Part shown: one piece after another, positions 29,614 through 46,951 of the stretch
How the letters are laid out: each line of letters opens with the position of its first letter
How positions within the stretch are numbered: the first letter of the stretch is position 1
Source: Microlunatus sagamiharensis
Lineage (GTDB): Bacteria; Actinomycetota; Actinomycetes; Propionibacteriales; Propionibacteriaceae
Direction: 5' to 3'
NCBI RefSeq assembly: GCF_900105785.1
Contig: NZ_LT629799.1
Coordinates: 434,001 to 498,000, forward strand
DNA: 64,000 nt
Notes under the pieces: model-generated
Databases searched by the model: none
Told to the model about the DNA's origin: nothing
Seen by the model: the letters and a program-made list of their open reading frames with translations, nothing else
Made by a program: the position numbers and the translations under genes

Positions 29614-29656
29614 TTGAACCCCCCGCGCTGCTCCTGCTAGTTTGTCCGAACAAACT
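29614..29656 (+). promoter_or_regulatory. Promoter and operator of the tautomerase gene
   Basis: TTGAAC (29614-29619), 18-bp spacer, TAGTTT (29638-29643). A perfect dyad AGTTTGTCCGAACAAACT (29639-29656) covers the -10. Its core TTTGTCCGAACAAA is a variant of the sites before iolC, the 40573 dehydrogenase gene and the ABC importer, implying a shared repressor. Confidence 0.6.
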
Positions 29657-29673
29657 TCGGGAAGGGGCGGGCC

Positions 29674-30063
29674 GTGCCGCTGGTCAGGATCGACGTCGTC
29701 GAGGGTCGGGAGCCGGCCGCGCTGCGCCGCCTCGCCGACGTGGTGCAGGAGGTGCTGGAAGAAGTCTTCGCGGCCCCGCCGCTCGACCGCTACCAGGTCG
29801 TCGACGAGCACCCGGCGCGGAACCTGATCCTGGCCGACACCGGGCTCGGCTTCCAGCGCACCGACGACCGCGTCCTCGTCCAGGTCTTCCAGCAGGGCCG
29901 CACCGACGAGCAGAAGCAGGCCCTGTACGCCCGCCTGGCCGAGCGACTGAAGGCCGAGTGCGGCCTGGCACCGACCGACCTGGTGGTCTCGGTGGCCGCC
30001 AACACCCGGGCCGACTGGTCCTTCGGGCTCGGTCGGGCGCAGTTCCTCGAGGGCGACCTCTGA
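29674..30063 (+). CDS. Tautomerase-superfamily protein (4-OT/MIF-like)
   Basis: A 129-residue tautomerase whose second residue is Pro (GTG CCG), the catalytic Pro1 after Met removal. The family core PLVRIDVVEGREPAALRRLA leads into a helix, and the second beta-alpha-beta unit includes VLVQVFQQGRTDEQKQALYA. Ribosome site GGGAAGGGG precedes the GTG. The operator upstream is shared with the inositol genes, so it may act on a keto/enol intermediate of inositol breakdown (inference). No tautomerase is part of the textbook iol pathway. Confidence 0.8.
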   Translation: MPLVRIDVVEGREPAALRRLADVVQEVLEEVFAAPPLDRYQVVDEHPARNLILADTGLGFQRTDDRVLVQVFQQGRTDEQKQALYARLAERLKAECGLAPTDLVVSVAANTRADWSFGLGRAQFLEGDL

Positions 30064-30084
30064 GCCGCTGCGCGCTCGTGACCA

Positions 30085-30130
30085 TTTGTCAGGACAAAGC
30101 GTTGACACTGTCAGCGCCGACCCGTAGCGT
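30085..30130 (+). promoter_or_regulatory. Promoter and operator of the iol operon
   Basis: Operator TTTGTCAGGACAAA (30085-30098) lies 3 bp upstream of TTGACA (30102-30107), which is 17 bp from TAGCGT (30125-30130). The predicted start is about 39 nt before the iolC ATG, and GAAGGAGA serves as ribosome site. This is one of five related dyads in the window. Confidence 0.7.
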
Positions 30131-30175
30131 CGGGCACGTCGACCGACCGCACGTCGGAGAACTCGAAGGAGAGCG

Positions 30176-31252
30176 ATGACCAGCCAGTCAGCCCTGCCCC
30201 AGCAGCCGGCGGGGGAGTCGACCGGGCCGGTCGACGGCGCCGAGCTGGAGGTGCTGACCTTCGGCCGCGCGGGCGTCGACATCTACCCGCTGCAGGTCGG
30301 TGTCGGCCTCGAGGACGTGGAGAGCTTCGGCAAGTACCTCGGCGGCACCTGCGCCAACGTCGCCGTCGCCGCCGCGCGCTTCGGCCACCGCACCGCGATC
30401 ATCACCGGCGTCGGGGACGACCCCTTCGGCCGCTTCGTGCGCCGCACCTTCCGCGAGCTGGGCGTGACCGACGAGCACGTCGTCACCAACCACACGTACG
30501 CGACCCCGGTGACCTTCTGCGAGATCTTCCCGCCGGACGACTTCCCGCTGTACTTCTACCGCAAGCCCACCGCCCCGGACCTCCAGGTGACGCCGGCCGA
30601 CATCGACCTCGACGCGGTGCGTGCGACGCGGCTGATGTGGCTGTCGGTCACCGGCTTCAGCGAGGAGCCGAGCCGCGAGAGCCACTTCGCCGTCCTGGAC
30701 GCGCGGGCCGGCGCTCGCCAAGCACAGGGCACGTGGACCGTCCTCGACCTCGACTACCGCCCGATGTTCTGGGAGACCCCGGCGCACGCGACGGAGCAGA
30801 TCCAGCGCGCCCTGCCGCACGTCACCGTCGCGGTGGGCAACCGCGAGGAGTGCGAGGTCGCCGTCGGCGAGACCGAGCCCGAGCGCGCGGCCGACGCCCT
30901 GCTCGCCGCCGGCGTCGAGCTCGCCGTGGTCAAGCAGGGCCCCAAGGGCGTGCTGGCCAAGACCCGCTCGGGCGAGCGCGTCGAGGCCCCGCCGATCCCG
31001 GTCCGGCCGCTCAACGGCCTGGGCGCGGGCGACTCGTTCGGCGGTTCGCTGATCCACGGCCTGCTCGAGGGCTGGCCGCTGGAGAAGGTCCTGCGCCACG
31101 CGAACGCCGCCGGGGCGATCGTCGCCAGCCGGCTCGAGTGCTCCACGGCCATGCCGACGCAGGAGGAGATCGAGACGCTGCTCGCGGGTGGCGACCCCAA
31201 CGAGCGCCTCGCCGACTCCCTCGCGGTGCACTTCGCCGGGGCCGGGCGGTGA
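30176..31252 (+). CDS. iolC: 5-dehydro-2-deoxygluconokinase
   Basis: PfkB-family kinase phosphorylating 2-deoxy-5-keto-D-gluconate in myo-inositol breakdown. 358 residues. Sugar-binding signature GGTCANVAVAAARFGH at about 58-73 and the catalytic GAGDS motif at 283-287 (Asp286 as base). First gene of a tightly packed operon with its own promoter and operator; the stop overlaps the next gene's GTG by 4 nt. The first ~25 residues are a Gln/Ser/Pro-rich extension not needed for the fold. Confidence 0.93.
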   Translation: MTSQSALPQQPAGESTGPVDGAELEVLTFGRAGVDIYPLQVGVGLEDVESFGKYLGGTCANVAVAAARFGHRTAIITGVGDDPFGRFVRRTFRELGVTDEHVVTNHTYATPVTFCEIFPPDDFPLYFYRKPTAPDLQVTPADIDLDAVRATRLMWLSVTGFSEEPSRESHFAVLDARAGARQAQGTWTVLDLDYRPMFWETPAHATEQIQRALPHVTVAVGNREECEVAVGETEPERAADALLAAGVELAVVKQGPKGVLAKTRSGERVEAPPIPVRPLNGLGAGDSFGGSLIHGLLEGWPLEKVLRHANAAGAIVASRLECSTAMPTQEEIETLLAGGDPNERLADSLAVHFAGAGR

Positions 31253-32172
31253 CCGCGACGATGGACGGGACCAGGGCCACCGACCGCGCGGGCTCGCGCT
31301 TCGTGTCCTCGGTCTCCGAGATCTCCGAGGTCCGGGCCCGCGAGCCCCAGCGGATCGGCGAGCTGCTCGCCTCCCGCGAGCGGCGCGACCTCTTCGGCGC
31401 CGAGGGCCAGCTGATGATCGTCGCCTGCGACCACCCGGCCCGCGGCGCGCTCGGCGCCTCCGGGCGGCGCAACGCCATGGCCAACCGCGTCGAGCTGCTC
31501 GACCGGCTCGCCACCGCGCTGGCCCGCCCCGGGGTCGACGGGCTGCTCGCCACGGCCGACATCGCCGAGGACCTGCTGCTGATGGGCGCGCTCGAGGGCA
31601 AGCTCGTCTTCGCCTCGCTCAACCGCGGCGGGATCCAGGGCGCCTCCTTCGAGATGGACGACCGCGCCACCGGCTACGACGTCCGCGGCACGCTCGAGGC
31701 CCGCTTCGACGGGCTCAAGATGCTCACCCGCATCGACCTCGACGACCCGGGCACCGTGGCCACGCTGGAGACGCAGGGGCGTGTGGTCACTGAGTGCAAC
31801 CGGGCCGGCCTGGTCGCCATGGTCGAGCCCTTCATGTCGCGCCGCGTCGGCGGCAAGGTCGTCAACGACCTGAGCCCGGACGCCGTGATCAAGTCCGTGG
31901 CCATCGCCTCCGGCCTGGGCGCCTCCAGCGCGTACACGTGGATGAAGCTGCCCGTGGTCGACGAGATGGAGCGCGTCATGGACGCCACCACCCTCCCGAC
32001 CCTGCTGCTCGGCGGCGACCCGGAGGGCTCGCCCGACGAGACGTACGCCTCCTGGTCGGCCGCGCTCGCGCTGCCGTCGGTCCGCGGCCTCGTCCTGGGC
32101 CGCACCATGCTCTACCCGGCCGACGACGACGTGGCCAAGGCCGTCGACACCGCCGTGGGGCTGCTGCGATGA
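31249..32172 (+). CDS. Cgl0158-type (beta/alpha)8 barrel protein, probable DKGP aldolase
   Basis: A 307-residue class I aldolase-like barrel. Visible segments are QLMIVACDHPARGALGA at the first strand, DGLLATADIAEDLLLMGAL, and GYDVRGTLEARFDGLKMLTR with a candidate Schiff-base Lys. It matches, from memory, the Corynebacterium gene that follows iolC. No IolJ (class II aldolase) is encoded in the window, so this protein is the likely 2-deoxy-5-keto-gluconate-6-phosphate aldolase that yields dihydroxyacetone phosphate and malonate semialdehyde (inference from position). Coupled by 4-nt overlaps to iolC and iolB. Confidence 0.8.
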   Translation: MTATMDGTRATDRAGSRFVSSVSEISEVRAREPQRIGELLASRERRDLFGAEGQLMIVACDHPARGALGASGRRNAMANRVELLDRLATALARPGVDGLLATADIAEDLLLMGALEGKLVFASLNRGGIQGASFEMDDRATGYDVRGTLEARFDGLKMLTRIDLDDPGTVATLETQGRVVTECNRAGLVAMVEPFMSRRVGGKVVNDLSPDAVIKSVAIASGLGASSAYTWMKLPVVDEMERVMDATTLPTLLLGGDPEGSPDETYASWSAALALPSVRGLVLGRTMLYPADDDVAKAVDTAVGLLR

Positions 32173-33050
32173 CCGAGCTCTACCTCCCGGCCGGCACGGC
32201 CGGGCACGGCGCGTACGAGCTCGAGGTCACGCCGGAGTCGGCGGGCTGGGGCTACTCCGGCCTGCGCGTGGTCGCGCTCGACGCGGCCGAGGAGCACCAC
32301 TTCGACACCGGTGCCGACGAGGTCGTCGTCGTCCCGCTCAGCGGCGGGGCCACCGTCGACGCCGACGGCAGCCACGTCGACCTCACCGGACGCGCGGACG
32401 TCTTCGCGGGCCCGACCGACTTCGTCTACCTGCCGCCGGGCACCACGGTCACGCTGCACAGCGAGCGCGGCGGCCGCTTCGCCCTCTGCTCCGCCCGCAC
32501 CGACCGGCGCCTGCCCGTCCGCTACGGCGCGGCGTCCGAGGTGCCCGTCGAGCTGCGCGGGGCCGGGCGCTCGAGCCGCCAGGTGCGCAACTTCGGCACC
32601 CCGGACAACCTCGACGCGGGCGCGATCATCGCCTGCGAGGTGATCACGCCGGACGGCAACTGGTCGTCGTACCCGGCGCACAAGCACGACGAGGCCTCCG
32701 AGCACGAGAGCGAGCTCGAGGAGATCTACTACTTCGAGGTCGCCGCCGGCCCGCAGGGCCAGCCGGGTCTCGGCTTCTTCCGGACCTCCTCCTCGCCCGG
32801 CCACCCGATCGAGATCACCGAGGAGGTGCACGACCGCGACGTCGTGCTCGTCCCGCACGGGTGGCACGGGCCCGCGGTCGCGGCTCCCGGGCACGCGATG
32901 TACTACCTGAACGTCATGGCCGGACCGCCGCACCTCGGTGCGGAGCACGGCCGGGCCTGGCTGATCAGCGACCACCCCGACCAGACCTGGGTCCGCTCCG
33001 CGTGGGCGGACCAGGAGGTCGACCCGCGACTGACCCAGGAGGGGTCCTAG
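32169..33050 (+). CDS. iolB: 5-deoxy-glucuronate isomerase
   Basis: Bicupin isomerase converting 5-deoxy-D-glucuronate to 2-deoxy-5-keto-D-gluconate. 293 residues. The metal ligands of the C-terminal cupin are in SSYPAHKHDE and ELEEIYYFEV, with HGWHGP completing the site. ATG shares ATGA with the upstream stop, and the stop abuts the iolD ATG directly with no gap. Length and motifs are standard. Confidence 0.93.
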   Translation: MTELYLPAGTAGHGAYELEVTPESAGWGYSGLRVVALDAAEEHHFDTGADEVVVVPLSGGATVDADGSHVDLTGRADVFAGPTDFVYLPPGTTVTLHSERGGRFALCSARTDRRLPVRYGAASEVPVELRGAGRSSRQVRNFGTPDNLDAGAIIACEVITPDGNWSSYPAHKHDEASEHESELEEIYYFEVAAGPQGQPGLGFFRTSSSPGHPIEITEEVHDRDVVLVPHGWHGPAVAAPGHAMYYLNVMAGPPHLGAEHGRAWLISDHPDQTWVRSAWADQEVDPRLTQEGS

Positions 33051-34952
33051 ATGGCAGAGAAGGTGAGGATGACCGTCGCCCAGGCGACGATCAGCTTCCT
33101 CGGCGCGCAGTACAGCGAGTCCGACGGGGTCGAGCAGAAGCTCTTCGCCGGCTGCCTCGGCATCTTCGGCCACGGCAACGTCGCCGGGATCGGCCAGGCG
33201 CTGCTGCAGGCCGAGCTGGAGACGCCCGACCTGCTGCCGTACGTGCTCGGGCGCAACGAGCAGGCCATGGTGCACACCGCCGTCGCGTACGCTCGGATGA
33301 AGGAGCGTCGCCAGACCTGGGTCGTCTCGACCAGCGTCGGCCCGGGTGCGACCAACATGCTCACCGGTGCCGCGCTGGCGACGATCAACCGGCTCCCGGT
33401 GCTGCTGCTCCCGGCCGACACCTTCGCCGACCGCTCCGCGTCCCCGCTGCTGCAGGAGCTCGAGCAGCCGTACGCCGGCGACGTCACCGTGAACGACGCG
33501 TTCCGGCCCGTCTCGGTCTACTTCGACCGCGTCTGGCGCCCCGAGCAGCTGCCCGCGGCGCTGCTGAGCGCGATGCGCGTGCTCACCGACCCGGCCGCCA
33601 CCGGCGCGGTGACCGTCTGCTTCCCCCAGGACGTGCAGGCGGCTGCCTACGACTGGCCGGCCGATCTGTTCGAGCGTCGCGTCTGGCACATCGCCCGGCC
33701 GCTGCCCGAGCGCGCCGTGCTGCAGCAGGCGGCCGACCTGATCCGCGCGGCCGAGCGCCCGCTGGTCGTGGCCGGCGGCGGCGTGCACTACTCCGGCGCC
33801 ACCGACGCGCTCGCGGCCTTCTGCGAGGCCACCGGCATCCCCGTCGGGCAGACCCAGGCCGGCAAGGGCACGCTCGTCTTCGACCACCCGCAGTGCCTCG
33901 GCGCCATCGGCTCCACCGGCACCACGGCGTCGAACGCGGTCGCCGCCGAGGCCGACCTCGTGATCGGCATCGGCACCCGCTACTCCGACTTCACGACGGC
34001 GAGCCGGACGGCCTTCCAGCACCCGGGCGTCGGCTTCGTCAACATCAACGTCGCCGGCCTCGACGCGGTCAAGCAGTCCGGGCTCTCGGTCGTCGCCGAC
34101 GCCCGCGAGGCGCTCGACGGCCTGACGGCGCTGCTCGAGGGCCACCACGTCGACCAGGCCTACGTCGAGCGCTACACCGCGCTCGACGCCGAGTGGGAGG
34201 CCACGGTCGAGCGCGTCTACGCCGAGACCGAGACGCCGGAGGGGCTGCTCACCCAGAACGCCGTCATCGGCACCGTCAACGAGGTCTCCGACCCCCGCGA
34301 CGTCGTCGTGTGCGCCGCCGGCTCGATGCCCGGCGACCTGCACAAGCTGTGGCGCACGCGGGACCCGAAGGGCTACCACGTCGAGTACGGCTACTCGTGC
34401 ATGGGCTACGAGGTCGCCGGCGGTCTCGGCGTCGCGATGGCCTGCCCGGACCGCGACGTCTTCGTCATGGTCGGCGACGGCTCGTACCTGATGATGGCCA
34501 CAGAGCTGGCCACCGCGGTCCAGGAGCACGTCAAGGTCATCACCGTCCTCGTGCAGAACCACGGCTACGCCTCGATCGGCGCGCTCTCGGAGTCGCTCGG
34601 CTCGCAGCGTTTCGGCACCCGCTACCGCGAGCGCGGCGCCGGTGGCCGCCTGGACGGGGAGCTCCTGCCCGTCGACCTCGCCGCCAACGCCGCCAGCTTC
34701 GGCCTCGAGGTCCTGCGCGCCACGACCAAGGCCGAGCTCGCCGACGCGATCAAGGTCGCCAAGGCCGGCAGCGACCCGGTCGTGATCTACGTCGAGACCG
34801 ACCCCTTCGTCGACGCCCCGAGCTCGGAGTCGTGGTGGGACGTCCCGGTCAGCGAGACCTCGACGCTCGACTCGACCCGGCAGGCCCGCACGACGTACGA
34901 GGAGCACAAGGCGCGCCAGCGCCTGTTCCTCACCCCGCCGCGCACCTCCTGA
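33051..34952 (+). CDS. iolD: 3D-(3,5/4)-trihydroxycyclohexane-1,2-dione hydrolase
   Basis: Thiamine-diphosphate enzyme that opens the inositol ring. 633 residues in three domains: the N-terminal PYR domain with the catalytic Glu-type segment LPYVLGRNEQAMVH, the middle domain (VVAGGGVHYSGATDAL) and the C-terminal PP domain with the ThDP/Mg motif GDGSY from residue 475, ending in QNHGYASIG. It starts one base after the iolB stop. A ribosome-site-like GGAGGGG in the end of iolB precedes the ATG. Confidence 0.95.
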   Translation: MAEKVRMTVAQATISFLGAQYSESDGVEQKLFAGCLGIFGHGNVAGIGQALLQAELETPDLLPYVLGRNEQAMVHTAVAYARMKERRQTWVVSTSVGPGATNMLTGAALATINRLPVLLLPADTFADRSASPLLQELEQPYAGDVTVNDAFRPVSVYFDRVWRPEQLPAALLSAMRVLTDPAATGAVTVCFPQDVQAAAYDWPADLFERRVWHIARPLPERAVLQQAADLIRAAERPLVVAGGGVHYSGATDALAAFCEATGIPVGQTQAGKGTLVFDHPQCLGAIGSTGTTASNAVAAEADLVIGIGTRYSDFTTASRTAFQHPGVGFVNINVAGLDAVKQSGLSVVADAREALDGLTALLEGHHVDQAYVERYTALDAEWEATVERVYAETETPEGLLTQNAVIGTVNEVSDPRDVVVCAAGSMPGDLHKLWRTRDPKGYHVEYGYSCMGYEVAGGLGVAMACPDRDVFVMVGDGSYLMMATELATAVQEHVKVITVLVQNHGYASIGALSESLGSQRFGTRYRERGAGGRLDGELLPVDLAANAASFGLEVLRATTKAELADAIKVAKAGSDPVVIYVETDPFVDAPSSESWWDVPVSETSTLDSTRQARTTYEEHKARQRLFLTPPRTS

Positions 34953-35917: not shown

Positions 35918-36924
35918 GCGACCTGCAGCGTGATCTGAGGATCGCCGTCCTCGGTGTCGGGATGATGGGTGCTTTCCACGCCGACGCCCTGGCGACCCGC
36001 ACCAAGGGTGCGCGCGTCGTCGTGGTCAACGACTTCGCCGCGGAGAAGGCCGCGGAGGTCGCGGCCAGGGTCGGCGCACGCGTCGTCGAGGACCCGATCG
36101 CCGCAATCAACGCCCCCGAGGTCGACGCGGTCCTCATCGCGACGCCCGGCAAGGCGCACGCCGAGCAGGTCCAGGCGTGCCTCGCCGCGGGCAAGCCGGT
36201 GCTGTGCGAGAAGCCGCTGACCACCGACGAGGAGTCCTCGTACGCGCTGGTGCAGGCCGAGGCAGCGGTGGGCCGGCCGCTGGTCCAGCTCGGCTTCATG
36301 CGGCGTTTCGACGCCGAGTACGCCGCGCTGAAGGACCTGATCACCTCAGGCGGCCTCGGCAACCCGCTGCTCGTGCACTGCACGCACCGCAACCCGGCCG
36401 TGCCGGACTTCTTCAACTCCGAGTTCATGGTGCGCGACTCGGTGGTGCACGAGGTCGACGTCGCCCGCTTCCTGCTCGACGAGGAGATCACCTCGGTGCA
36501 GGTGCTGCGCGGCGTCGCGACGTCGTCGGCCCCGGAGGGCACCTGGGACCCGATGATCGTCGTCTTCGAGACCGAGTCCGGCCGGATCGTCACCGACGAG
36601 ATCTCCGTGCGCACCGGTGTCGCGTACGAGGTTCGCACCGAGGTGGTGGGCGAGACCGGCAGCGCCATGATCGGCCTCGACCAGAGCCTGGTCCGCACCA
36701 GCACCGACGGCCGGTGGGGCGGTCAGATCACTCCCGGTTTCGTCGAGCGCTTCGGGCAGGCCTACGACACCGAGCTGCAGCGCTGGGTCGCTGCGGCGAA
36801 GCAGGGCACGATCGACGGTCCCGGTGTCTGGGACGGCTACGCGGCGGTCGCGGTCTGCGAGGCCGGCGTCAAGGCCGTGCAGACCGGCGAGAAGGTCGCG
36901 GTCGCCCTGAAGGCCAAGCCGTGA
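35914..36924 (+). CDS. iolG: myo-inositol 2-dehydrogenase
   Basis: Gfo/Idh/MocA NAD-dependent dehydrogenase that oxidises inositol to 2-keto-inositol, the first catabolic step. 336 residues. Rossmann glycine motif VLGVGMMGAFHADAL, EKP motif AGKPVLCEKPLT and the active-site region NSEFMVRDSVVHEVDVARFL with the Asp and His of the catalytic set. GTG start coupled to iolE; stop coupled to iolH. A second family member is at 40573-41763. Confidence 0.9.
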   Translation: MSDLQRDLRIAVLGVGMMGAFHADALATRTKGARVVVVNDFAAEKAAEVAARVGARVVEDPIAAINAPEVDAVLIATPGKAHAEQVQACLAAGKPVLCEKPLTTDEESSYALVQAEAAVGRPLVQLGFMRRFDAEYAALKDLITSGGLGNPLLVHCTHRNPAVPDFFNSEFMVRDSVVHEVDVARFLLDEEITSVQVLRGVATSSAPEGTWDPMIVVFETESGRIVTDEISVRTGVAYEVRTEVVGETGSAMIGLDQSLVRTSTDGRWGGQITPGFVERFGQAYDTELQRWVAAAKQGTIDGPGVWDGYAAVAVCEAGVKAVQTGEKVAVALKAKP

Positions 36925-37811
36925 GGCTCGCGCTCGACGCCCAGATGTTCTTCGCCGACGCGAGCGTGTACGAGCTGCCCGACATCGCGGCGTCGCTGGG
37001 CTACTCCTGGATCGAGCTGTCGCCCAAGGACGACTTCATCCCGTTCTTCCGGCACCCGCGAATCGACGACGCCGGCGTCCGGAAGCTCAAGAAGGTCGCC
37101 GCCGACGCGGGGGTCGGCTTCGCGTCGATTATCCCGCTGAACCGCTGGGCCGGGCCGGACGAGGACCAGCGCCAGGCCGCCGTGCGGTCCTGGAAGCGGG
37201 CGATCCAGATCGCCGTGGACCTCGAGGTCGACATCCTCAACTCCGAGTTCAACGGGCGTCCCGAGGACCCGGAGACGGCCGAGGCGATGTTCCTGCGGTC
37301 GATGGACGAGCTGCTGCCGATCCTCGAGCGCGAGGGCGTCCAGCTGGTCCTGGAGCCGCACCCGGACGACTTCATCGAGGACGGCCTCGACGCGGTCGGG
37401 ATGGTCAAGGGTCTGAACCGCGACTGGCTCGGCTTCCTGTACTGCACGCCGCACGCCTTCCACCAGCGCCACAGCCCGACCTCGATCATCGAGGCGGCCG
37501 GTGAGAAGGTGCGCTACGTGCACCTCGCCGACGCGTTCGACCACACGGCGTCGCACGGCCTGCGCTACATCACCAACCCGCCCGGCAACGCCGTCCGCGT
37601 CCATCAGCATATGGAGGTCGGGCGCGGCGAGGTGCCGTACGACGAGGTGTTCGCGGCCCTGGCGTCGGTCGGCTTCGACGGCGTGGTGAGCAGCTGCGTC
37701 TTCGGCTTCGAGGAGGACGCCCGCGCGATCTCCGAGCGCCAGCGCGACGCCGCCGTCGCCCTGGTCGAGAAGCACTTCGGCACTGGCACGGCCGCCACCC
37801 TCACCCGCTAG
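36921..37811 (+). CDS. iolH: IolH-like sugar phosphate isomerase/epimerase
   Basis: A 296-residue TIM barrel resembling IolH of Bacillus inositol operons, particularly the block RWAGPDEDQRQAAVRSWKRA followed by IQIAVDLEVDILNSEFNG. Metal ligands are likely in LVLEPHPDDFIE, TPHAFHQ and LADAFDHTASH. The exact reaction of IolH is unsettled; it is accessory to inositol breakdown. GTG start is coupled to iolG by a 4-nt overlap, and it closes the first tightly packed block. Confidence 0.82.
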   Translation: MRLALDAQMFFADASVYELPDIAASLGYSWIELSPKDDFIPFFRHPRIDDAGVRKLKKVAADAGVGFASIIPLNRWAGPDEDQRQAAVRSWKRAIQIAVDLEVDILNSEFNGRPEDPETAEAMFLRSMDELLPILEREGVQLVLEPHPDDFIEDGLDAVGMVKGLNRDWLGFLYCTPHAFHQRHSPTSIIEAAGEKVRYVHLADAFDHTASHGLRYITNPPGNAVRVHQHMEVGRGEVPYDEVFAALASVGFDGVVSSCVFGFEEDARAISERQRDAAVALVEKHFGTGTAATLTR

Positions 37812-37867: not shown

Positions 37868-39361
37868 ATGGCCACCACCCTCCACCACTGGCTGAACGGC
37901 GCGACGTACGAAGGCTCCGGCGGCCGCTTCAGCGACGTCACCAACCCGGCGACCGGCGAGGTCAGCGCCCAGCTCGCGCTGGCGTCCGAGGAGGACGTGA
38001 ACGCGGTCGTCGCGGGCGCCGCGGCGGCGTTCCCCGCGTGGCGCGACACCTCCCTGGCCAAGCGGGTGCAGATCCTCTTCGCCTTCCGCGAGCTGCTGAA
38101 CGCCCGCGCCGACGAGCTCGCCGCGATCATCACCAGCGAGCACGGCAAGGTCCTCTCCGACGCGAGGGGCGAGGTCGCCCGCGGCCAGGAGGTCGTGGAG
38201 TTCGCCTGCGGCATCCCGCACCTGATCAAGGGCATGTTCACCGAGAACGCCTCCACCAAGGTCGACGTCCACTCGGTGCGTCAGCCGCTGGGCGTCGTGG
38301 GTGTCATCAGCCCGTTCAACTTCCCGGCCATGGTGCCGATGTGGTTCTTCCCCCTCGCGATCGCCGCCGGCAACACCGTCGTGCTCAAGCCGAGCGAGAA
38401 GGTCCCGACCGCCGCCCTGTTCATGGCGCAGCTGTGGAAGGAGGCCGGCCTGCCCGACGGCGTCTTCAACGTGCTCAACGGTGACAAGGTCGCCGTCGAC
38501 GGGCTCCTGACGCACCCGGACGTGCAGTCCATCAGCTTCGTCGGCTCCACCCCGATCGCGCGCTACGTGTACGAGACCGGCACCCAGCACGGCAAGCGCG
38601 TCCAGGCTCTCGGCGGGGCGAAGAACCACATGATCGTGCTGCCCGACGCCGACCTCGACCTCGCCGCCGACGCGGCCGTCAACGCCGGCTACGGCTCGGC
38701 CGGGGAGCGCTGCATGGCGATCTCGGCGGTCCTCGCCGTGGGCGAGATCGGCGACACCCTGGTCCAGAAGATCAAGGAGCGGACCGTCGGCCTGCGCACC
38801 GGCGACGGGACCCGCGGCTGCGACATGGGCCCGCTGGTCACCTCGGTCGCGCAGCAGCGCGTCGCCGGCTACGTCGACGCCGGCGAGGCGTCCGGCGCGA
38901 CCATCGTCGTCGACGGCCGTGACCCCGAGGTCGACGCCGACGGCAACGGCTTCTTCGTCGGCCCGACGCTGTTCGACCACGTCACCACCGACATGAGCAT
39001 CTACACCGACGAGATCTTCGGCCCGGTCCTCTCGGTCGTGCGCGTCGACTCGTACGCCGACGGCCTGCAGCTGATCAACGACAACCCGTACGGCAACGGC
39101 ACCGCGATCTTCACCAACGACGGCGGCGCCGCCCGGCAGTTCCAGAACGAGGTCAAGGTCGGCATGATCGGCATCAACGTGCCGGTCCCCGTGCCGATGG
39201 CGTACTACTCGTTCGGTGGCTGGAAGAACTCGCTGTTCGGTGACACCCACGCCCACGGCGTCGAGGGCGTGCACTTCTTCACCCGTGGCAAGGTCGTCAC
39301 CAGCCGTTGGCTCGACCCGAGCCACGGCGGCATCAACCTGGGGTTCCCCCAGAACGCCTGA
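37868..39361 (+). CDS. iolA: Methylmalonate-semialdehyde dehydrogenase (CoA-acylating)
   Basis: Converts malonate semialdehyde to acetyl-CoA (and methylmalonate semialdehyde to propionyl-CoA), the last step of inositol breakdown. 497 residues. The catalytic Cys282 is in GSAGERCMAIS, the cofactor segment is KPSEKVPTAALFM, and the Rossmann turn is SFVGSTPIARYVYE. Absence of the usual general-base Glu is typical of CoA-acylating MMSDH. Ribosome site AAAGGAAA lies 10 nt before the ATG; a strong hairpin follows the stop. Confidence 0.93.
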   Translation: MATTLHHWLNGATYEGSGGRFSDVTNPATGEVSAQLALASEEDVNAVVAGAAAAFPAWRDTSLAKRVQILFAFRELLNARADELAAIITSEHGKVLSDARGEVARGQEVVEFACGIPHLIKGMFTENASTKVDVHSVRQPLGVVGVISPFNFPAMVPMWFFPLAIAAGNTVVLKPSEKVPTAALFMAQLWKEAGLPDGVFNVLNGDKVAVDGLLTHPDVQSISFVGSTPIARYVYETGTQHGKRVQALGGAKNHMIVLPDADLDLAADAAVNAGYGSAGERCMAISAVLAVGEIGDTLVQKIKERTVGLRTGDGTRGCDMGPLVTSVAQQRVAGYVDAGEASGATIVVDGRDPEVDADGNGFFVGPTLFDHVTTDMSIYTDEIFGPVLSVVRVDSYADGLQLINDNPYGNGTAIFTNDGGAARQFQNEVKVGMIGINVPVPVPMAYYSFGGWKNSLFGDTHAHGVEGVHFFTRGKVVTSRWLDPSHGGINLGFPQNA

Positions 39362-39371
39362 TCTCAGGCGC

Positions 39372-39407
39372 CCGCGACCCGACCCGGACGCCCGGGCCGG
39401 GTCGCGG
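39372..39407 (+). terminator. Terminator-like hairpin after iolA
   Basis: A perfect 10-bp GC-rich stem, CCGCGACCCG (39372-39381) with CGGGTCGCGG (39398-39407), begins 10 nt after the iolA stop. It separates the iol operon from the LacI gene. No U-tract. Confidence 0.65.
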
Positions 39408-39436
39408 TGCCTCACGGGCACCCAGTCAGGAGCTCG

Positions 39437-40465
39437 ATGACCAGCACCGGACCAGGGACGCCGCCCGCCCGGACGGGGCGCCCGACGATGCTCGACGTGG
39501 CCGAGGCGGCCGGGGTGTCCCGGGCGCTCGTGTCCATCGTCTTCCGAGGAGCACCCGGCGCGAGCGAGCAGTCGCGCGCACACGTCATGGAGGTCGCCGA
39601 CCGGCTCGGTTTCAGCCCCAACCGGTCCGCGAGCCTGCTCAAGCTGCGTCGCAACCGTCATCTCGGTGTGGCGATGGACGTGCGCAGCACCTTCCACGCC
39701 GAGCTCGTCGAGGGCATCCAGGCAGCGGCCGACAGCGCCGGCTACGAGGTCGTGCTCTCGGCCGTCACGTCGGGACGTCCGGAGGAGCGCGCGGTGTCGA
39801 CGCTCCTGGACTTCCGGTGCGAGGCGCTGCTCCTGCTCGGGACCGGCCTCGACGACGATGCGCTGACCGAGCTGGCCCGCCGGGTGCCGCTGGTGCTCGT
39901 CGGTGGGGCCCGGGCGCGCGGGGCGCTGGACGTCGTGCGGTCGTCCGACGAGCGCGGGTCCGGGCTCGTGGTCGACCACCTCGCCACGCTCGGCCACCAG
40001 CGGCTCGTCCACGTCGACGGCGGGCCGACGTGGACGAGCACCGAGCGACGTCGCGGCTTCCGCCGCGCCCTGGACCGTCACGGGCTCCGGGAGGTGACGG
40101 TACTGAGCGGCGGGAACGACGAGGCCGCCGGAGCCCGGGCGGCCGAGCGGCTGCTCGACGCCGAAGAGCTGCCCACGGCGGTCTGCGCCTACAACGACCG
40201 GGTCGCGATCGGGGTGCTGGAGCGTCTGGGTCGCGCCGGCGTGACGGTGCCCGACGACGTCTCGGTCACGGGCTACGACGACACCGCGTTCGCTGGCCTG
40301 CTCGCCATCGACCTCACGTCGGTCAACCAGGAGGCGCAGCTCCAGGCCCGGGGTGCCGTCGAGGCAGCGGTCGAGCGGCTCGACGGTGGTCGGTCGGAGG
40401 TGGCGGAGCGGGTGTTCGAACCCCGCCTGGTCGTCCGCGGCAGCACCGCGCCGCCGCGGGGCTGA
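39437..40465 (+). CDS. LacI-family transcriptional regulator
   Basis: A 342-residue repressor. The N-terminal helix-turn-helix reads TMLDVAEAAGVSRALVSIVF with hinge LGFSPNRSASLL, then a periplasmic-binding-protein-like effector domain (HLGVAMDVRSTFHAELVEGI and SVTGYDDTAFAGL). ATG 39437 has AGGAG just upstream. Placed between the iol operon and the second dehydrogenase gene, it is a prime candidate to sense an inositol. Its likely site is the CG-centred palindrome at 40516-40531, and possibly the TTTGTC dyads. Confidence 0.88.
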   Translation: MTSTGPGTPPARTGRPTMLDVAEAAGVSRALVSIVFRGAPGASEQSRAHVMEVADRLGFSPNRSASLLKLRRNRHLGVAMDVRSTFHAELVEGIQAAADSAGYEVVLSAVTSGRPEERAVSTLLDFRCEALLLLGTGLDDDALTELARRVPLVLVGGARARGALDVVRSSDERGSGLVVDHLATLGHQRLVHVDGGPTWTSTERRRGFRRALDRHGLREVTVLSGGNDEAAGARAAERLLDAEELPTAVCAYNDRVAIGVLERLGRAGVTVPDDVSVTGYDDTAFAGLLAIDLTSVNQEAQLQARGAVEAAVERLDGGRSEVAERVFEPRLVVRGSTAPPRG

Positions 40466-40478: not shown

Positions 40479-40531
40479 CTTGACAGGACAAACCCCGGGC
40501 ACTAGCGTCAGCCGAACTAGACCGATCTAGT
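40479..40531 (+). promoter_or_regulatory. Promoter with two operators before the second Gfo/Idh/MocA gene
   Basis: TTGACA (40480-40485), 17 bp, TAGCGT (40503-40508). CTTGACAGGACAAA (40479-40492), 12 of 14 bases identical to the iolC operator, overlaps the -35. ACTAGACCGATCTAGT (40516-40531), a perfect 6-bp-arm dyad with a CG centre as in LacI operators, lies at about the transcription start. Confidence 0.65.
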
Positions 40532-40572: not shown

Positions 40573-41763
40573 ATGACCCTCGGTGTCGCCGTCATCGGCG
40601 CTGGCATGGCCGGACGCGCGCACGCGTCCGCCTACCGCGTCGCCCCCACGCTGTACGCGTCCACGCTGCCCGACCTGCGCTACGTCTCGATCGGTGACCT
40701 GAGCCCCGAGCTCGGCGCGGAGGCCGCGAAGCGGTTCGGCTACGAGCGCAGCGACACCGACTGGCGCGCGATCGCCGAGAACCCCGACATCGACGTGGTC
40801 AGCGTCGTCGTCGCGAACTTCCTGCACCGCGAGATGGTCGAGGGGCTGGTCGCGGCCGGCAAGCACGTGCTCTGCGAGAAGCCGCTCAGCGACAGCCTCG
40901 ACGACGCCCGGGCGATGGCCGACCTGGCGCGGGGCGCGGACACGGTGGTCCGCGTCGGCTTCACCTTCCGTCGGGCGCCCGGCGTCGCGATGCTGCGCCA
41001 GCTCGTCAACGACGGCACCCTGGGCAACGTCCAGCACGTCGACGTCCGCTACTACTGCGACTACGCCGCCGACCCGTCAGGCCCGATCAGCTGGCGCTTC
41101 AAGGGCGGTCCGGGCACCGGGGCGCTCGCCGACGTCGGCAGCCACGCGGCGTACCTGGCCGAGTTCGTCGCCGGGGACATCTCGGAGGTCAGCGGCGGCC
41201 GGTTCACCACGGCGATCAAGGAGCGCCCGGTCGCGCTCGGGGTCGTGCAGCGGGTCGGGAAGGTCGAGGTGAGCGACCAGCGCGAGCCGGTCGAGAACGA
41301 CGACTACGCGAGCTTCAGCGCCCAGTTCGCCTCCGGCGTCGGGGTGGTCGAGGTCTCCCGCGTCGCAGCCGGCCACCCGAACGGCCTGGTCATCGAGGTG
41401 TACGGCGACAAGGGTGCCGCGGTGTGGGACCTCGAGCGGGCCGGGGAGTTCCAGCTGGTCCTCAACAGCGACCCGTCGGCAATCCGCGGCTTCCGCCGCG
41501 TCGTCCTCGGTCCGGAGGCGCCGTACTTCGGCGGCGGTCTGGCCATGGACGCCCAGGGCGTCGGGGTCGGGCAGAACGAGGGCTTCAACTTCCAGGCGCG
41601 CGCGTTCCTCGAGGAGGTCGCCGGGCTCGACGAGTCCGCGTCGCTGCCGCGCTGCGCCACCTTCGACGAGGGCGTCCACAACATGGAGATCCTCGCCGCC
41701 GTCGCCGAGTCCGCCGCCCATGGCGGAGCCGGCGTCGCCGTGCCGCCCGCCCGTACCTCCTGA
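40573..41763 (+). CDS. Gfo/Idh/MocA-family dehydrogenase (second inositol/polyol dehydrogenase candidate)
   Basis: A 396-residue NAD(P)-dependent oxidoreductase. Rossmann motif VIGAGMAGRAHASAY, EKP motif AGKHVLCEKPLSD, and a second-domain active-site helix around GALADVGSHAAYLAEFV with the Asp and His. It is longer than IolG and resembles the OxiD-type extra inositol dehydrogenases of Corynebacterium. It may oxidise another stereoisomer such as scyllo- or chiro-inositol (inference). Own promoter with an operator shared with iolC; GAAGGAGA ribosome site. Confidence 0.83.
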   Translation: MTLGVAVIGAGMAGRAHASAYRVAPTLYASTLPDLRYVSIGDLSPELGAEAAKRFGYERSDTDWRAIAENPDIDVVSVVVANFLHREMVEGLVAAGKHVLCEKPLSDSLDDARAMADLARGADTVVRVGFTFRRAPGVAMLRQLVNDGTLGNVQHVDVRYYCDYAADPSGPISWRFKGGPGTGALADVGSHAAYLAEFVAGDISEVSGGRFTTAIKERPVALGVVQRVGKVEVSDQREPVENDDYASFSAQFASGVGVVEVSRVAAGHPNGLVIEVYGDKGAAVWDLERAGEFQLVLNSDPSAIRGFRRVVLGPEAPYFGGGLAMDAQGVGVGQNEGFNFQARAFLEEVAGLDESASLPRCATFDEGVHNMEILAAVAESAAHGGAGVAVPPARTS

Positions 41764-41846: not shown

Positions 41847-41905
41847 CGGTGGCCACTGGTCATCTCCGGCCCCGGACCGGCCTCCGTAACGGCCGGAAGT
41901 GCCCA

Positions 41906-41915
41906 GTTGGCCAAC
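41906..41915 (+). promoter_or_regulatory. Short palindrome before the TIM-barrel gene
   Basis: GTTGGCCAAC, a perfect 10-bp palindrome flanked by CC and GG, lies 31 bp before the ATG of the isomerase gene. It is a possible operator, but short enough to occur by chance in GC-rich DNA. Confidence 0.3.
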
Positions 41916-41946
41916 GGGGGTCCAGCAGAGCGACGAAGGAGTCCCC

Positions 41947-42948
41947 ATGAAGTTCGGCGTCTACAACGCGGTCCTGCACGACCGTTCCCTGCCGGAGGCG
42001 ATCGAGGTCGTCGCCGGTCTCGGCCTGACCGGGATCGAGCTCAACTCGGGCGGCTTCCTGCCGGCCGTCCACATCCCGACGTTCGACGACATCCTGACGT
42101 CGGACACGGCGCGCGACGACTTCCTCGGCCAGTTCGAGGGCACCGGCGTCGAGATCGCCGGGCTCAACTGCAACGGCAACCCGCTGCACCCCACGAAGGC
42201 GATCGGGGACGCGCACGCGGAGGACATCCGGCGCAGCATCCGGCTGGCCAACCGCCTGGGGCAGCACCGGGTCGTGACCATGTCCGGACTGCCGGGCAGC
42301 GAGCCCGGGGTGAAGCAGCCCACCTGGGTCGTCAACGCCTGGAACTCCGCCGCCCTCGACGTGCTCGAGCACCAGTGGGCCGTGGCCGAGACGTTCTGGC
42401 GCGAGATCGACCGTGAGGCGGCCGACCTGGACGTCAAGGTCGCCCTGGAGCTGCACCCGCAGAACATCGTCTTCAACCCGGCCGGCATCCGCGAGCTGGT
42501 CGAACGCACCGGCGCCACGCACCTCGGCGTCGAGCTGGACGCGTCGCACCTCTTCTGGCAGTGGATGGACCCGGTCGCCGTGGTGCAAGACCTCGGTCCG
42601 CTGGTCTTCCACGCCGCCGCCAAGGACGTGCGGATCAACCCGGCCGCTGCAGTCTTCGGCGTGCTGGACAACCGGTTCCGCAAGCTGTCGCCGGACGAGC
42701 CCCGCACCAACCTCGGGGGCGACGAGTGGGCGAACGAGTGGCCGAAGGAGGCCGCGTGGGACTTCGTCGCACTCGGTCGCGGCCACGACGCCGTCTACTG
42801 GTCGACCTGGCTCGCCGCCCTGCACGCCGTGGACCCCGACATGCTCGTGAACATCGAGCACGAGGACACCAGCCTCGGCCGCATCGAGGGCCTCGAGGTC
42901 GCGTCCGGCGTGCTGCTCGACGCCGCTCGTCGCGCCGGGGTCGCCTGA
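41947..42948 (+). CDS. TIM-barrel sugar phosphate isomerase/epimerase
   Basis: A 333-residue AP-endonuclease-2 superfamily barrel, third of its kind in the region. Metal-site segments are TGIELNSGGFLP, VALELHPQNIVF, GVELDASHLFWQW, FHAAAKDVRIN and VNIEHEDTS. It follows the second Gfo/Idh/MocA dehydrogenase, a pairing common in inositol and rare-sugar pathways. It could be an inosose isomerase/epimerase (IolI-like) or act on a keto-sugar. GAAGGAG lies 9 nt before the ATG. Confidence 0.82.
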   Translation: MKFGVYNAVLHDRSLPEAIEVVAGLGLTGIELNSGGFLPAVHIPTFDDILTSDTARDDFLGQFEGTGVEIAGLNCNGNPLHPTKAIGDAHAEDIRRSIRLANRLGQHRVVTMSGLPGSEPGVKQPTWVVNAWNSAALDVLEHQWAVAETFWREIDREAADLDVKVALELHPQNIVFNPAGIRELVERTGATHLGVELDASHLFWQWMDPVAVVQDLGPLVFHAAAKDVRINPAAAVFGVLDNRFRKLSPDEPRTNLGGDEWANEWPKEAAWDFVALGRGHDAVYWSTWLAALHAVDPDMLVNIEHEDTSLGRIEGLEVASGVLLDAARRAGVA

Positions 42949-42963
42949 GGTCGGCGCGCCGGG

Positions 42964-43761: not shown

Positions 43762-43812
43762 GGGGCTGCTCCTTGCTCGTTCGCTGCCGACGTTCTACCA
43801 CTCCTGCGCTCC

Positions 43813-43878
43813 TTGACCTCCGGCTCGCGACGAAATAGCGTCCCGTAGGAGGGGACTGCGTTCCGTACAGCGGAACGC
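43813..43878 (+). promoter_or_regulatory. Promoter and IclR-type operator of the sugar transporter
   Basis: TTGACC (43813-43818), 17 bp, TAGCGT (43836-43841). Perfect 8-bp arms GCGTTCCG (43858-43865) and CGGAACGC (43871-43878) around TACAG lie at about +10 to +30, where a bound repressor would block transcription. A second dyad, GTCAGCGCTGAC, occurs further down the leader just before the gene. Confidence 0.65.
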
Positions 43879-43926
43879 CGAGGTGGCATCCCTCGACGTG
43901 TCAGCGCTGACGGAAGGACCTGCACC

Positions 43927-45342
43927 ATGGCCCACGACACCACCTCGCCGGCGGTCGGGCTACCACCCGACACGAAGGGGCCCCACTCCTCCCGGCTGGG
44001 CCTGGTCGCCGTCGTCGCCACCTTCGGCGGTCTGCTGTTCGGCTACGACACCGGCGTCATCAACGGCGCGCTGGAGCCGATGAAGTCCGACCTCGGGCTC
44101 ACCTCCGTCACCGAGGGCCTGGTCGTGTCCATCCTGATCTTCGGGGCCGCCATCGGCGCGATCGTCGGCGGCAGGCTCTCGGACCTGCGAGGTCGCCGGA
44201 ACAACATCCTGCTCATCGCCCTCGTCTTCATGATCGGGACGCTGGGCTGCGTGCTCAGCCCGAGCTGGCCGGTGCTGGCGTTCTTCCGGCTCGTCCTCGG
44301 CCTCGCCGTCGGGGCGGCGTCGGCGACCGTGCCGGTCTACCTGTCCGAGATCGCCCCGTACGAGCGGCGCGGCAGCATGGTCACCCGCAACGAGGTCATG
44401 ATCGTGAGCGGGCAGTTCGCCGCCTTCATCATCAACGCGGTCATCTTCCAGGTCTGGGGCGAGCACGAGGGTGTGTGGCGCTTCATGCTGGCGGTCGCGG
44501 TCCTGCCGGCGATCGCCCTCTTCGTCGGCATGCTGCGCATGCCCGAGAGCCCGCGCTGGCTGGTGCTGAAGGAGCGTGACGCCGAGGCCCTCGACGTGCT
44601 CAAGCAGGTGCGCTCCGAGGGCCGGGCCGAGGCCGAGATGGCCGAGGTGCGCGCGCTCGCCGACGAGGAGCGTGCCTCCCAGACCGGCGGCGCGTCCGAC
44701 CTCGGCGTGCGCTGGATCCGGCGCCTGATCTTCATCGGCGTGGGGCTCGGGGTGTTCCAGCAGCTCACCGGGATCAACTCGGTCATGTACTACGGCACCC
44801 AGCTGCTGACGCAGTCCGGCTTCTCCGCCTCCGCCGCGATCATCGCCAACACGCTCAACGGCCTCTTCAGCGTCCTCGGCATCACGGTCGGGCTGCTGCT
44901 GATGAACCGCATCGACCGGCGCAGGATGCTGCTGGGCGGCTTCACCCTGACCACGTTCTTCCACCTGCTGGTCGGGCTGTCGGCCCTGCTGCTGCCCGAC
45001 GGGCAGGCCAAGGCGTACTTCATCCTGGTGTTCGTCGTGCTCTTCGTGTTCTCGATGCAGGGCACCATCGGACCGCTGGTGTGGCTCATGCTGGCCGAGA
45101 TCTTCCCGCTCAAGATCCGCAGCTTCGCGATCGGCCTGTGCGTCTTCATGCTGTGGATCGCCAACGCCGTGGTCGCCCTCGGCTTCCCGACCGTCGTCAG
45201 CGCCCTGGGCATCGCGCCCACGTTCTTCATCTTCGCCGGGCTCGGCGTGCTGGCGCTGATCTTCATCTACACCCAGGTCCCCGAGACCCGTGGCCGCTCG
45301 CTGGAACAGCTGGAGGACCAGTTCCGCACGCAGTACAGCTGA
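43927..45342 (+). CDS. iolT: Sugar/inositol MFS proton symporter
   Basis: A 471-residue, 12-helix transporter of the sugar-porter family. Diagnostic motifs are GGLLFGYDTGVINGAL in helix 1, GGRLSDLRGRRNNIL, PVYLSEIAPYERRGSM, the QQLTGINSVMYYGTQL sugar-binding helix 7, and VPETRGRSLEQLE at the end. It is close to bacterial myo-inositol transporters (IolT). With the iol operon nearby, inositol is the probable substrate. Controlled by its own TTGACC/TAGCGT promoter and probably by the divergent IclR protein. Confidence 0.85.
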   Translation: MAHDTTSPAVGLPPDTKGPHSSRLGLVAVVATFGGLLFGYDTGVINGALEPMKSDLGLTSVTEGLVVSILIFGAAIGAIVGGRLSDLRGRRNNILLIALVFMIGTLGCVLSPSWPVLAFFRLVLGLAVGAASATVPVYLSEIAPYERRGSMVTRNEVMIVSGQFAAFIINAVIFQVWGEHEGVWRFMLAVAVLPAIALFVGMLRMPESPRWLVLKERDAEALDVLKQVRSEGRAEAEMAEVRALADEERASQTGGASDLGVRWIRRLIFIGVGLGVFQQLTGINSVMYYGTQLLTQSGFSASAAIIANTLNGLFSVLGITVGLLLMNRIDRRRMLLGGFTLTTFFHLLVGLSALLLPDGQAKAYFILVFVVLFVFSMQGTIGPLVWLMLAEIFPLKIRSFAIGLCVFMLWIANAVVALGFPTVVSALGIAPTFFIFAGLGVLALIFIYTQVPETRGRSLEQLEDQFRTQYS

Positions 45343-45380
45343 GCCTCCCACCCGTCGCCCTCGTCACCCGTAAGGAAGCC

Positions 45381-45740
45381 GTGAGCATTCTCGTCGCTGT
45401 CGCGGACAGCAAGGAGGGCCGGCAGGCCCTGGTCACCGCCGCCGCCGAGGCTCAGCAGCTCGGCACCGACCTCGTCGTGGTCAACCTCGCGCTGAGCGCC
45501 CTCGACACCACCTCGATACCCCCGACGGTCGGGCACGAGCTCGTCGAGCGGCACGGGCGCGACGACGCCGATCCCGTCGAGGCGGTCCTGGACGCGCTCG
45601 AGGCCCGCCCGGGCGTGACGCGGCTCGTCATCGGGCTGCGCCGTCGCTCGCCGATCGGCAAGGCCGTGCTCGGCAGCACCGCGCAGCGGCTGCTGCTGGA
45701 GTCGCCCGTCCCGGTCCTCGCGGTCAAGGCCGCCCGGTAG
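45381..45740 (+). CDS. Universal stress protein (UspA family)
   Basis: A 119-residue single USP domain. It begins with the beta strand SILVAVADSKEGRQAL, and the C-terminal ATP-loop-like segment GLRRRSPIGKAVLGSTAQRL is followed by SPVPVLAVK, typical of ATP-binding USPs. It starts 38 nt after the MFS transporter stop with AAGGAAG as ribosome site, so it is likely co-transcribed. USPs next to transporters often modulate them, but no specific role is known here. A related gene is at 46384-46785. Confidence 0.82.
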   Translation: MSILVAVADSKEGRQALVTAAAEAQQLGTDLVVVNLALSALDTTSIPPTVGHELVERHGRDDADPVEAVLDALEARPGVTRLVIGLRRRSPIGKAVLGSTAQRLLLESPVPVLAVKAAR

Positions 45741-45774
45741 CGGTGCACAGCCGAGACGACGCCGGAGGAGCACG

Positions 45775-46323
45775 ATGACGACGCAGGAGCAGCACGGGTT
45801 CGCGGGCCTCGCGGACGGCGTCGACGACGACGTCTTCTACGAGGTCGCGCCCGTCTCCGGGAGACGGGGGCAGGGCTCGGCGGTGCCGGCCACCGCGTCC
45901 GAGCACGCCGACATCAACTTCTACACGCGGAAGTGGATCAAGCCCGAGGACCTCAACGCCAACGGCACGTTGTTCGGCGGCAGCCTGCTGCGGTGGATCG
46001 ACGAGGAGGCGACGATCTACACGATCGTGCAGCTTGGCAACCCCCGGGTGGTGACCAAGTTCATCTCCGAGATCAACTTCGTCAGCTCCGCCCGGCAGGG
46101 CGACCTCGTGGAGATGGGGTTGCGCGCCACGGCCTTCGGCCGGACGTCGATCACCATGCGGGCGCGGGTGCGCAACATGGTGACCGGGGCGTCGATCCTG
46201 ACGATCGAGAGGATCGTCTTCGTCAGTCTCGACGAGAGCGGCGAGCCTGCGCCCCACGGGTTCAGCGAGATCACCTACGAGCGGGACCGGTTCTCGCCCC
46301 GTGGCGCCGCACCCACGGCGTAG
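45775..46323 (+). CDS. Acyl-CoA thioesterase, hotdog fold
   Basis: A 182-residue cytosolic acyl-CoA hydrolase of the YciA/Acot7 type. Signature segments are FYTRKWIKPEDLNANGTLFG, GGSLLRWIDEEATIYT with the catalytic Asp/Glu region, and FVSSARQGDLVEM. The N-terminal 40 residues are a non-conserved extension. GGAGGAG lies 6 nt before the ATG. It is 34 nt downstream of the USP gene in the same orientation; a link to inositol-derived acetyl-CoA or propionyl-CoA is speculative. Confidence 0.83.
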   Translation: MTTQEQHGFAGLADGVDDDVFYEVAPVSGRRGQGSAVPATASEHADINFYTRKWIKPEDLNANGTLFGGSLLRWIDEEATIYTIVQLGNPRVVTKFISEINFVSSARQGDLVEMGLRATAFGRTSITMRARVRNMVTGASILTIERIVFVSLDESGEPAPHGFSEITYERDRFSPRGAAPTA

Positions 46324-46383
46324 CGCGGCGTCGAGCGGTGCCGCGAGGAGACGGCCCGACGGCCGAGCGGGCCCCGCTGGGGC

Positions 46384-46785
46384 TCAGCCCCTGTCCTTCA
46401 CCACGAGCACGGGCACGTCCGCCTGCAGGATGAGCGTCTGGGTCACGCTCCCGAGCAGGAACTTGCCGACGGGGGAGCGGCGTCGCGCGCCGATCACGAG
46501 GACCTCGGCGTCGATCGTCTCCACGAGCCCGAGGATGGCGCTGGCGACGTTCTCCTCGCCGGTCGCCAGGTGCAGCTCCCACTCCACGTCCAGCCCGGAC
46601 TCGCTCAAGATCCGGTCGACCTCGTCCGAGATCCCGGAACGGTTGGCCGCGGCGATGTCGAGGTCGAGCGACTCGACGACGTGCAGGACCGCGAGACCGG
46701 TCTGGCGCATGGATGCCTCGCGGGCCGCCTCGGCGAGCGCGATGCGGCTGGTGGAGGAGACCTGGTGGGCGACGGCGACGGTCAT
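46384..46785 (-). CDS. Universal stress protein (UspA family)
   Basis: A 133-residue USP domain with MTVAVAHQVSSTSRIALAEA at the start and the ATP-loop segment GARRRSPVGKFLLGSVTQTL followed by DVPVLVVK. It is divergent from the ABC importer operon. A dyad of the inositol-regulon type (46827-46840) lies about 42 bp upstream of its ATG, between the two genes. Its ribosome site is GGAGG just before the ATG. Confidence 0.82.
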   Translation of the reverse strand: MTVAVAHQVSSTSRIALAEAAREASMRQTGLAVLHVVESLDLDIAAANRSGISDEVDRILSESGLDVEWELHLATGEENVASAILGLVETIDAEVLVIGARRRSPVGKFLLGSVTQTLILQADVPVLVVKDRG

Positions 46786-46826
46786 GGACGACCTCCGGCT
46801 AGGACGGTTCCCGCGGGTGCGGACCC

Positions 46827-46840
46827 TTTGTCAGGTCAAT
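46827..46840. promoter_or_regulatory. Fourth inositol-type dyad (TTTGTCAGGTCAAT)
   Basis: Matches the iolC operator at 12 of 14 positions. It sits in the divergent region between the USP gene and the ABC importer, 76 bp upstream of the fifth site. It could control the USP gene or cooperate with the site at 46916. Confidence 0.5.
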
Positions 46841-46915
46841 GTAGCGAACAAGTGCGCAGGAGCGCTCCTGCCAGCCGCATGGGCAGCCGAGGAGCGCGGC
46901 AGAAGGCTCGAAAAG

Positions 46916-46951
46916 AATGTCTTGACAAAGGTTGAGCCACGCCTCTACGGT
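46916..46951 (+). promoter_or_regulatory. Promoter and fifth inositol-type dyad before the ABC importer
   Basis: TTGACA (46922-46927), 18 bp, TACGGT (46946-46951). AATGTCTTGACAAA (46916-46929) overlaps the -35; its core TGTCTTGACA fits the KGWCHTRACA motif I recall for GntR-type IolR of Corynebacterium glutamicum. Confidence 0.6.

Follow-up and report, generated by a model that had tools for sequence, protein, structure and literature searches.

An IolR-type GntR/UTRA regulator encoded outside the inositol cluster as the likely reader of five conserved dyads

Background

HutC-type regulators such as NagR/YvoA and DasR, comprising a GntR and a UTRA domain, control aminosugar genes. In Corynebacterium glutamicum, excerpts of two reports describe IolR as a GntR-type repressor of the genes for inositol transport and degradation and report autoregulation of iolR (PMC9603128, PMC8634428). 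Inositol genes under LacI-family regulators are known in other bacteria, and the LacI-family IolR groups are listed in an excerpt of PMC4052901. Here we analyze a 64-kb stretch, referred to as the window (G000:C1:434001-498000), from the genome of a probably Microlunatus-like organism comprising one contig of 4,405,185 bases. A sequence-only reading had noticed five TTTGTC-N2-(G/A)ACAAA dyads dispersed over an inositol cluster at window positions 29641, 30085, 40479, 46827 and 46916, and had proposed an inositol regulon. Each sequence is present at its position, the five sites are real, far beyond chance, and the regulon reading is supported. With a probability of about 0.9, the dyads would be operators of an unlinked GntR/UTRA repressor of the actinobacterial IolR kind.

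Judging from the published descriptions in those excerpts, the locus resembles the C. glutamicum IolR regulon in (i) the GntR-type regulator, (ii) the inositol genes and (iii) a site before the regulator's own unit, but differs in that iolR is unlinked and lies behind a Gfo/Idh gene, and in that a tautomerase gene and a universal stress protein gene (usp) are apparent targets. It shares with NagR/YvoA and DasR the GntR and UTRA architecture, including profile matches to their structures. As in the LacI-family IolR systems, a lacI gene resides in the cluster; in contrast to them, the LacI protein of this cluster is associated with a CG-centred dyad of its own and does not account for the five sites. 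The kind of control is thus already known, whereas the lineage and some of the targets are new, and our literature search returned no paper joining Microlunatus, inositol and a transcriptional regulator. The new details comprise the predicted usp and tautomerase targets, a putative dehydrogenase-iolR operon preceded by a site, and one promoter that IolR and LacI likely control together.

Conservation and ranking of the dyads

A profile search of genome contigs with an IolR alignment, keeping the best 80 named loci, provided 58 loci with divergent iolC and iolR genes, the other 22 being left out; the named loci include records of Mycolicibacterium, Rhodococcus, Gordonia, Geodermatophilus and Microlunatus. 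The site occurs at up to 2 mismatches in 49 of the 58 intergenic regions, compared with 3 of 1160 shuffled regions; many of the loci are closely related, and one identical sequence accounts for 26 of the 49 sites. When perfect short palindromes were counted in the same regions without any prior pattern, TGTC-N2-GACA came first, in 43 of 58 regions, with the runner-up at 26. The 17 distinct sequences among the 49 sites, none from the genome under study and one locus (L121, Microlunatus endophyticus) probably from its genus, were assembled into a weight matrix; the training sites were chosen by a pattern derived from the original finding, a dependence that the short-palindrome count does not share. 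Ranked by this matrix, the top five places of the entire window are exactly the five dyads (26.9, 22.5, 21.2, 19.4 and 15.7), followed by a sixth at 2.1, while in 50 shuffles the best place scored up to 14.8 and the fifth at most 6.9.

Simpler counts discriminate less. The pattern TTTGTCNNRACAAA, allowing up to 3 mismatches, finds 7 palindromic places in the window, corresponding to 14 strand matches against a shuffle mean of 7.5, a weak test because 5 of 100 shuffles reach 14; the five dyads carry 0-2 mismatches on the better strand and the two additional places carry 3. The core had also been likened to KGWCHTRACA, presumably the motif of the Corynebacterium GntR-type IolR; the literature search turned up no paper containing it. 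Its 3 exact matches in the window all fall among the five sites, and 3 of 100 shuffles likewise reach 3.

The same site precedes iolC in the relatives. The region from -150 to +30 of iolC holds it in 28 of 40 relatives (32 of 4000 shuffles), and the remaining 12 comprise one region cut at a contig end, two with a site at 3 mismatches, five whose site lies 0.9-1.9 kb upstream and four without a site. The two closest relatives, G017 and G014, keep the sites, sharing iolC, tautomerase, usp and dehydrogenase-iolR as targets, and the tautomerase gene is preceded by a site in G017, G014 and G007. In these two genomes together, regulon genes account for 11 of 16 places (5 of 8 in G017, 6 of 8 in G014), the reversed controls giving 4 and 5.

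Genome-wide placement

Two outcomes had been named that would refute the regulon, scattered matches with no enrichment at inositol genes and loss of the sites in close relatives; both were examined, and neither refuted it. The pattern TTTGTCNNGACAAA at up to 2 mismatches matches 15 places in the whole genome, the five window sites among them, against 1 for the reversed pattern. By matrix score, the five sites together with 3287084 and 2241182 range from 15.7 to 26.9, and the remaining eight, at 2.8-14.0, were taken as background from their score. The more restricted WWTGTCNNGACAWW, at up to 1 mismatch, matches 6 places, all at regulon genes (reversed control, 4): four inside the cluster, plus 3287084 and 2026068. 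About 46 bp separate the 3287084 site from the probable start of a Gfo/Idh gene downstream, an IolG relative (NF052679 1.4e-70, below cut-off) with a second Gfo/Idh gene behind it. At 2026068, CATGTCCTGACAAT lies 38 bp 5' of a Gfo/Idh gene; the end of this gene shares 4 bp with the start of the GntR/UTRA gene iolR.

Separately, TTTGTCCTTTCAAA at G000:C1:2241182-2241195 (L038:3183-3196; score 20.9) sits immediately before the start codon of a gene homologous to iolG; it remains a candidate operator because its minus-strand reading holds AAAGGAC, which resembles a ribosome-binding site.

The unlinked regulator

The sequence-only reading had seen no GntR gene in the window and left the regulator as either the LacI protein of the cluster or one encoded elsewhere. 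All 21 PF00392 matches of the genome indeed lie outside 434001-498000, and the genome count of clear GntR proteins is 16. One of the GntR genes, iolR (L025; G000:C1:2027307-2028062), located about 1.56 Mb from iolC, encodes a protein comprising a GntR and a UTRA domain (PF00392 3.7e-16 at L113:5308-6063). GntR genes of a single family occur in 26 of the iolC regions of the 40 relatives: (i) 13 are directly divergent from iolC, (ii) 8 are divergent but about 1 kb or more away from it, (iii) 1 lies upstream in the same direction and (iv) 4 lie further downstream; the GntR gene of L095, of another kind, was left out. For all 26 the best match in the present genome is this same protein, at 41-63% identity, the next paralogue reaching no more than 38%. 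The alternative of a regulator encoded elsewhere is the one favoured, and the reader of the five sites is likely the unlinked GntR/UTRA protein of the IolR type and not the cluster LacI.

Both IolR (at least 58% identity, one of them a fragment) and IolC (at least 74%) occur in 18 of 20 genomes of the genus, and neither occurs in G002 and G004; IolR identity amounts to 89% in G014 and 93% in G017. The best IolR matches among the named matches listed belong to Propionibacteriaceae and Microlunatus. Compared with solved structures, the IolR family profile matches 2ra5 (1.8e-101), an uncharacterised protein, followed by NagR/YvoA and DasR at 2e-51 to 4e-42. The operator differs from those of NagR/YvoA and DasR in having T, not G, before the GTC core. 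The motif in the promoter of the dehydrogenase gene directly ahead of iolR makes autoregulation probable.

Several observations weigh against this assignment. The iolR gene is not adjacent to iolC here, adjacency being treated as non-essential; in four of the 40 relatives (L108, L109, L110 and L112) an IolR-type gene is present but the region before iolC lacks a recognisable site; several relatives in the genus (L206, L207 and L210) showed no strong site around their unlinked iolR; no target was recognised for 5 of the 16 places in the G017 and G014 genomes; and the excess of WWTGTCNNGACAWW matches over their reversed control is numerically small.

Alternative readers of the sites

That the cluster LacI protein binds the five sites is suggested by the position of its gene, inside the cluster and adjoining site 3, and by the precedent of LacI-family inositol regulators, but it is very unlikely. 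The sites persist in G017 and G014, where the best LacI matches reach only 48% and 49%, respectively, the level of the genome's own paralogue. Furthermore, a different, CG-centred dyad, ACTAGACCGATCTAGT, located between lacI and the second dehydrogenase gene at 40516, accompanies the closer LacI homologues: of 9 others with at least 44% identity, 7 have it in their loci at 0-1 mismatch, the exceptions being L230 (53%) and L249, and the loci of 20 weaker homologues have none at 0-2 mismatches. The 7 include the genome's own LacI paralogue (48% identity) at 1879439, where the dyad lies about 80 bp before the gene. In the genome, ACTAGACCGATCTAGT matches exactly only at 40516, and at up to 3 mismatches it is no commoner than its reverse (34 versus 37). 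According to an excerpt of PMC4052901, a central CG is found in most even LacI operators, a feature present at 40516 and, among the five sites, only at 29641 (the central pairs being CG, AG, AG, AG and TT, in order of position). LacI was accordingly rejected as the reader of the five sites, on their retention in G017 and G014 and on its separate dyad. It probably has its own operator at 40516, which would place both inputs on the second-dehydrogenase promoter; double control of that promoter by the IolR-type protein and LacI is likely from this arrangement.

A 2-mismatch match to the LacI dyad, CCTAAAACGTTCTAGT, was also observed at G000:C1:2245875-2245890 (L116), about 50 bp before a transporter-like gene.

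Another GntR/UTRA paralogue, such as L018 or L020, reading the sites alone or together with IolR is most unlikely. Related GntR/UTRA proteins use GTC-N2-GAC dyads of similar spacing, and 16 clear GntR proteins are encoded in the genome; against this, the iolC-linked GntR genes of the relatives all match the iolR product best, by a wide margin, and a site precedes the iolR operon, whereas the best score in the paralogue stretches L039, L041 and L042 is 0.9. Finally, the chance that the dyads are incidental, as promoter hexamers palindromic by accident, is practically negligible: TTGACA as -35 lies inside sites 40479 and 46916, but 29641, 30085 and 46827 lack it, and shuffles, conservation and genome-wide placement contradict the idea.

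Promoters and proposed regulation

Four of the dyads had been described as overlapping or abutting a -35 or -10, at the tautomerase, iolC, second-dehydrogenase and importer genes, and this holds: the pattern TTGA(C/A)N-16..18-TANNNT occurs 6 times on both strands of the window, 4 of them at sites 1, 2, 3 and 5. No promoter of this pattern was found for usp, and a consensus promoter scanner at strict threshold reported none in the three stretches scanned at these sites. The position of the sites over or beside -35 or -10 favours repression, as in C. glutamicum.

In the scheme preferred here, with IolR as the regulator, an IolR dimer would occupy WWTGTC-N2-GACAWW sites that cover or adjoin the -35/-10 of four promoters (tautomerase, iolC operon, second dehydrogenase and importer), and also a site 5' of usp. 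Bound IolR would block RNA polymerase, and an inositol-derived ligand would release it; the analysis shows the sites, how they are conserved and placed across the genome, and the kinship of the regulator, and from these predicts binding, repression and ligand response. The regulon may further include the operon of IolR itself and the distant dehydrogenase gene pair, each preceded by the motif. More tentatively, and with the odds somewhat against it, the reach of IolR may extend beyond inositol breakdown, with usp and the tautomerase gene as separate units, and the second-dehydrogenase operon may act as a switch with two inputs, requiring release of IolR from the -35 as well as of LacI, made from the iol operon, from about +1 to +17, and tying inositol to a second sugar or an inositol isomer.

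The 600 bp upstream of the importer gene contain a matrix match of at least 12 in 35 of 42 loci (window included), mostly in the AATGTC...ACAAA orientation seen at 46916. In G017, a sequence identical to site 46827 lies 37 bp upstream of usp, and in G014 ATTGACCGGACAAA lies 52 bp upstream of usp; the 3-kb usp locus of neither genome showed an importer gene, and in G014 an importer gene accompanied by a separate site is located about 2 Mb from usp. The retention of a site before usp in these two closest relatives, in loci without a detected importer gene, makes usp the most likely target of 46827 and the importer that of 46916. It also led us to set aside a loop joining 46827 with 46916, since usp keeps a site even in 3-kb loci that showed no importer gene.

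In Gordonia polyisoprenivorans (L127:2388-2672), several matrix matches lie within about 230 bp 5' of the importer gene, two of them spaced 82 bp apart.

The analysis defines an operator, names a regulator gene and lists likely targets for the use of inositol in the organism under study; many other Actinobacteria carry the same site upstream of iolC. It also offers an example in which LacI, the regulator encoded within the cluster, is the wrong choice as reader of the main operator.

Organization of the locus

The gene map of the window fits an inositol cluster (Table 1), the iolG and iolE labels resting on matches below the curated NCBIfam cut-offs.

Table 1. Predicted operators, promoters and genes, in window coordinates (ABC, ATP-binding cassette)
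Feature	Position	Strand	Sequence or family match	Remark
Operator 1 (IolR-type, predicted)	29641..29654		TTTGTCCGAACAAA	matrix score 19.4; overlaps tautomerase -10
Operator 2 (IolR-type, predicted)	30085..30098		TTTGTCAGGACAAA	matrix score 26.9, top of window; 3 bp 5' of iolC -35
Operator 3 (IolR-type, predicted)	40479..40492		CTTGACAGGACAAA	matrix score 15.7; includes second-dehydrogenase -35
Operator 4 (IolR-type, predicted)	46827..46840		TTTGTCAGGTCAAT	matrix score 21.2; 41 bp upstream of usp start (usp on minus strand)
Operator 5 (IolR-type, predicted)	46916..46929		AATGTCTTGACAAA	matrix score 22.5; includes importer -35
Candidate LacI operator	40516..40531		ACTAGACCGATCTAGT	CG-centred; between lacI and second dehydrogenase, ~+1 to +17 of promoter (start point inferred)
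Tautomerase promoter	29614-29643		TTGAAC 29614-29619, TAGTTT 29638-29643	site 1 over -10
iolC promoter	30102-30130		TTGACA 30102-30107, TAGCGT 30125-30130	site 2 ends 3 bp before -35
Second-dehydrogenase promoter	40480-40508		TTGACA 40480-40485 (-35)	site 3 contains -35
Importer promoter	46922-46951		TTGACA 46922-46927 (-35)	site 5 contains -35
Tautomerase gene	29674..30063	+	PF14552, PF01361	
iolC, 5-dehydro-2-deoxygluconokinase	30176..31252	+	TIGR04382	389.9 bits, cut-off 300
Cgl0159-type aldolase gene	31252..32172	+	PF22649, 2e-120	start approximate
iolB	32184..33050	+	TIGR04378, over cut-off	start approximate
iolD	33051..34952	+	TIGR04377, over cut-off	
iolG-like Gfo/Idh dehydrogenase	35920..36924	+	NF052679 3.2e-85, below cut-off	start approximate
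iolE-like TIM-barrel isomerase/dehydratase gene	36882..37811	+	PF01261; TIGR04379 weak, below cut-off	start approximate
mmsA/iolA-type aldehyde dehydrogenase	37868..39361	+	TIGR01722, over cut-off	
LacI-family regulator gene	39407..40465	+	PF00356, PF13377	
Second Gfo/Idh dehydrogenase gene	40573..41763	+	PF01408, PF22725	
TIM-barrel isomerase gene	41899..42948	+	PF01261	
Sugar-porter-type transporter gene	43927..45342	+	PF00083; TIGR00879, over cut-off	
Universal stress protein gene (usp)	46384..46785	-	PF00582	divergent
Importer (ABC) substrate-binding protein gene	47291..48283	+	PF13407	start inferred; open frame begins upstream
Importer permease gene	48412..49416	+	PF02653	start approximate
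Importer ATPase gene	49420..50235	+	PF00005	

The sugar-porter gene, which has no IolR-type site at its promoter-like element, is preceded by a TTGACC-17-TAGCGT pair at window positions 43813-43841.

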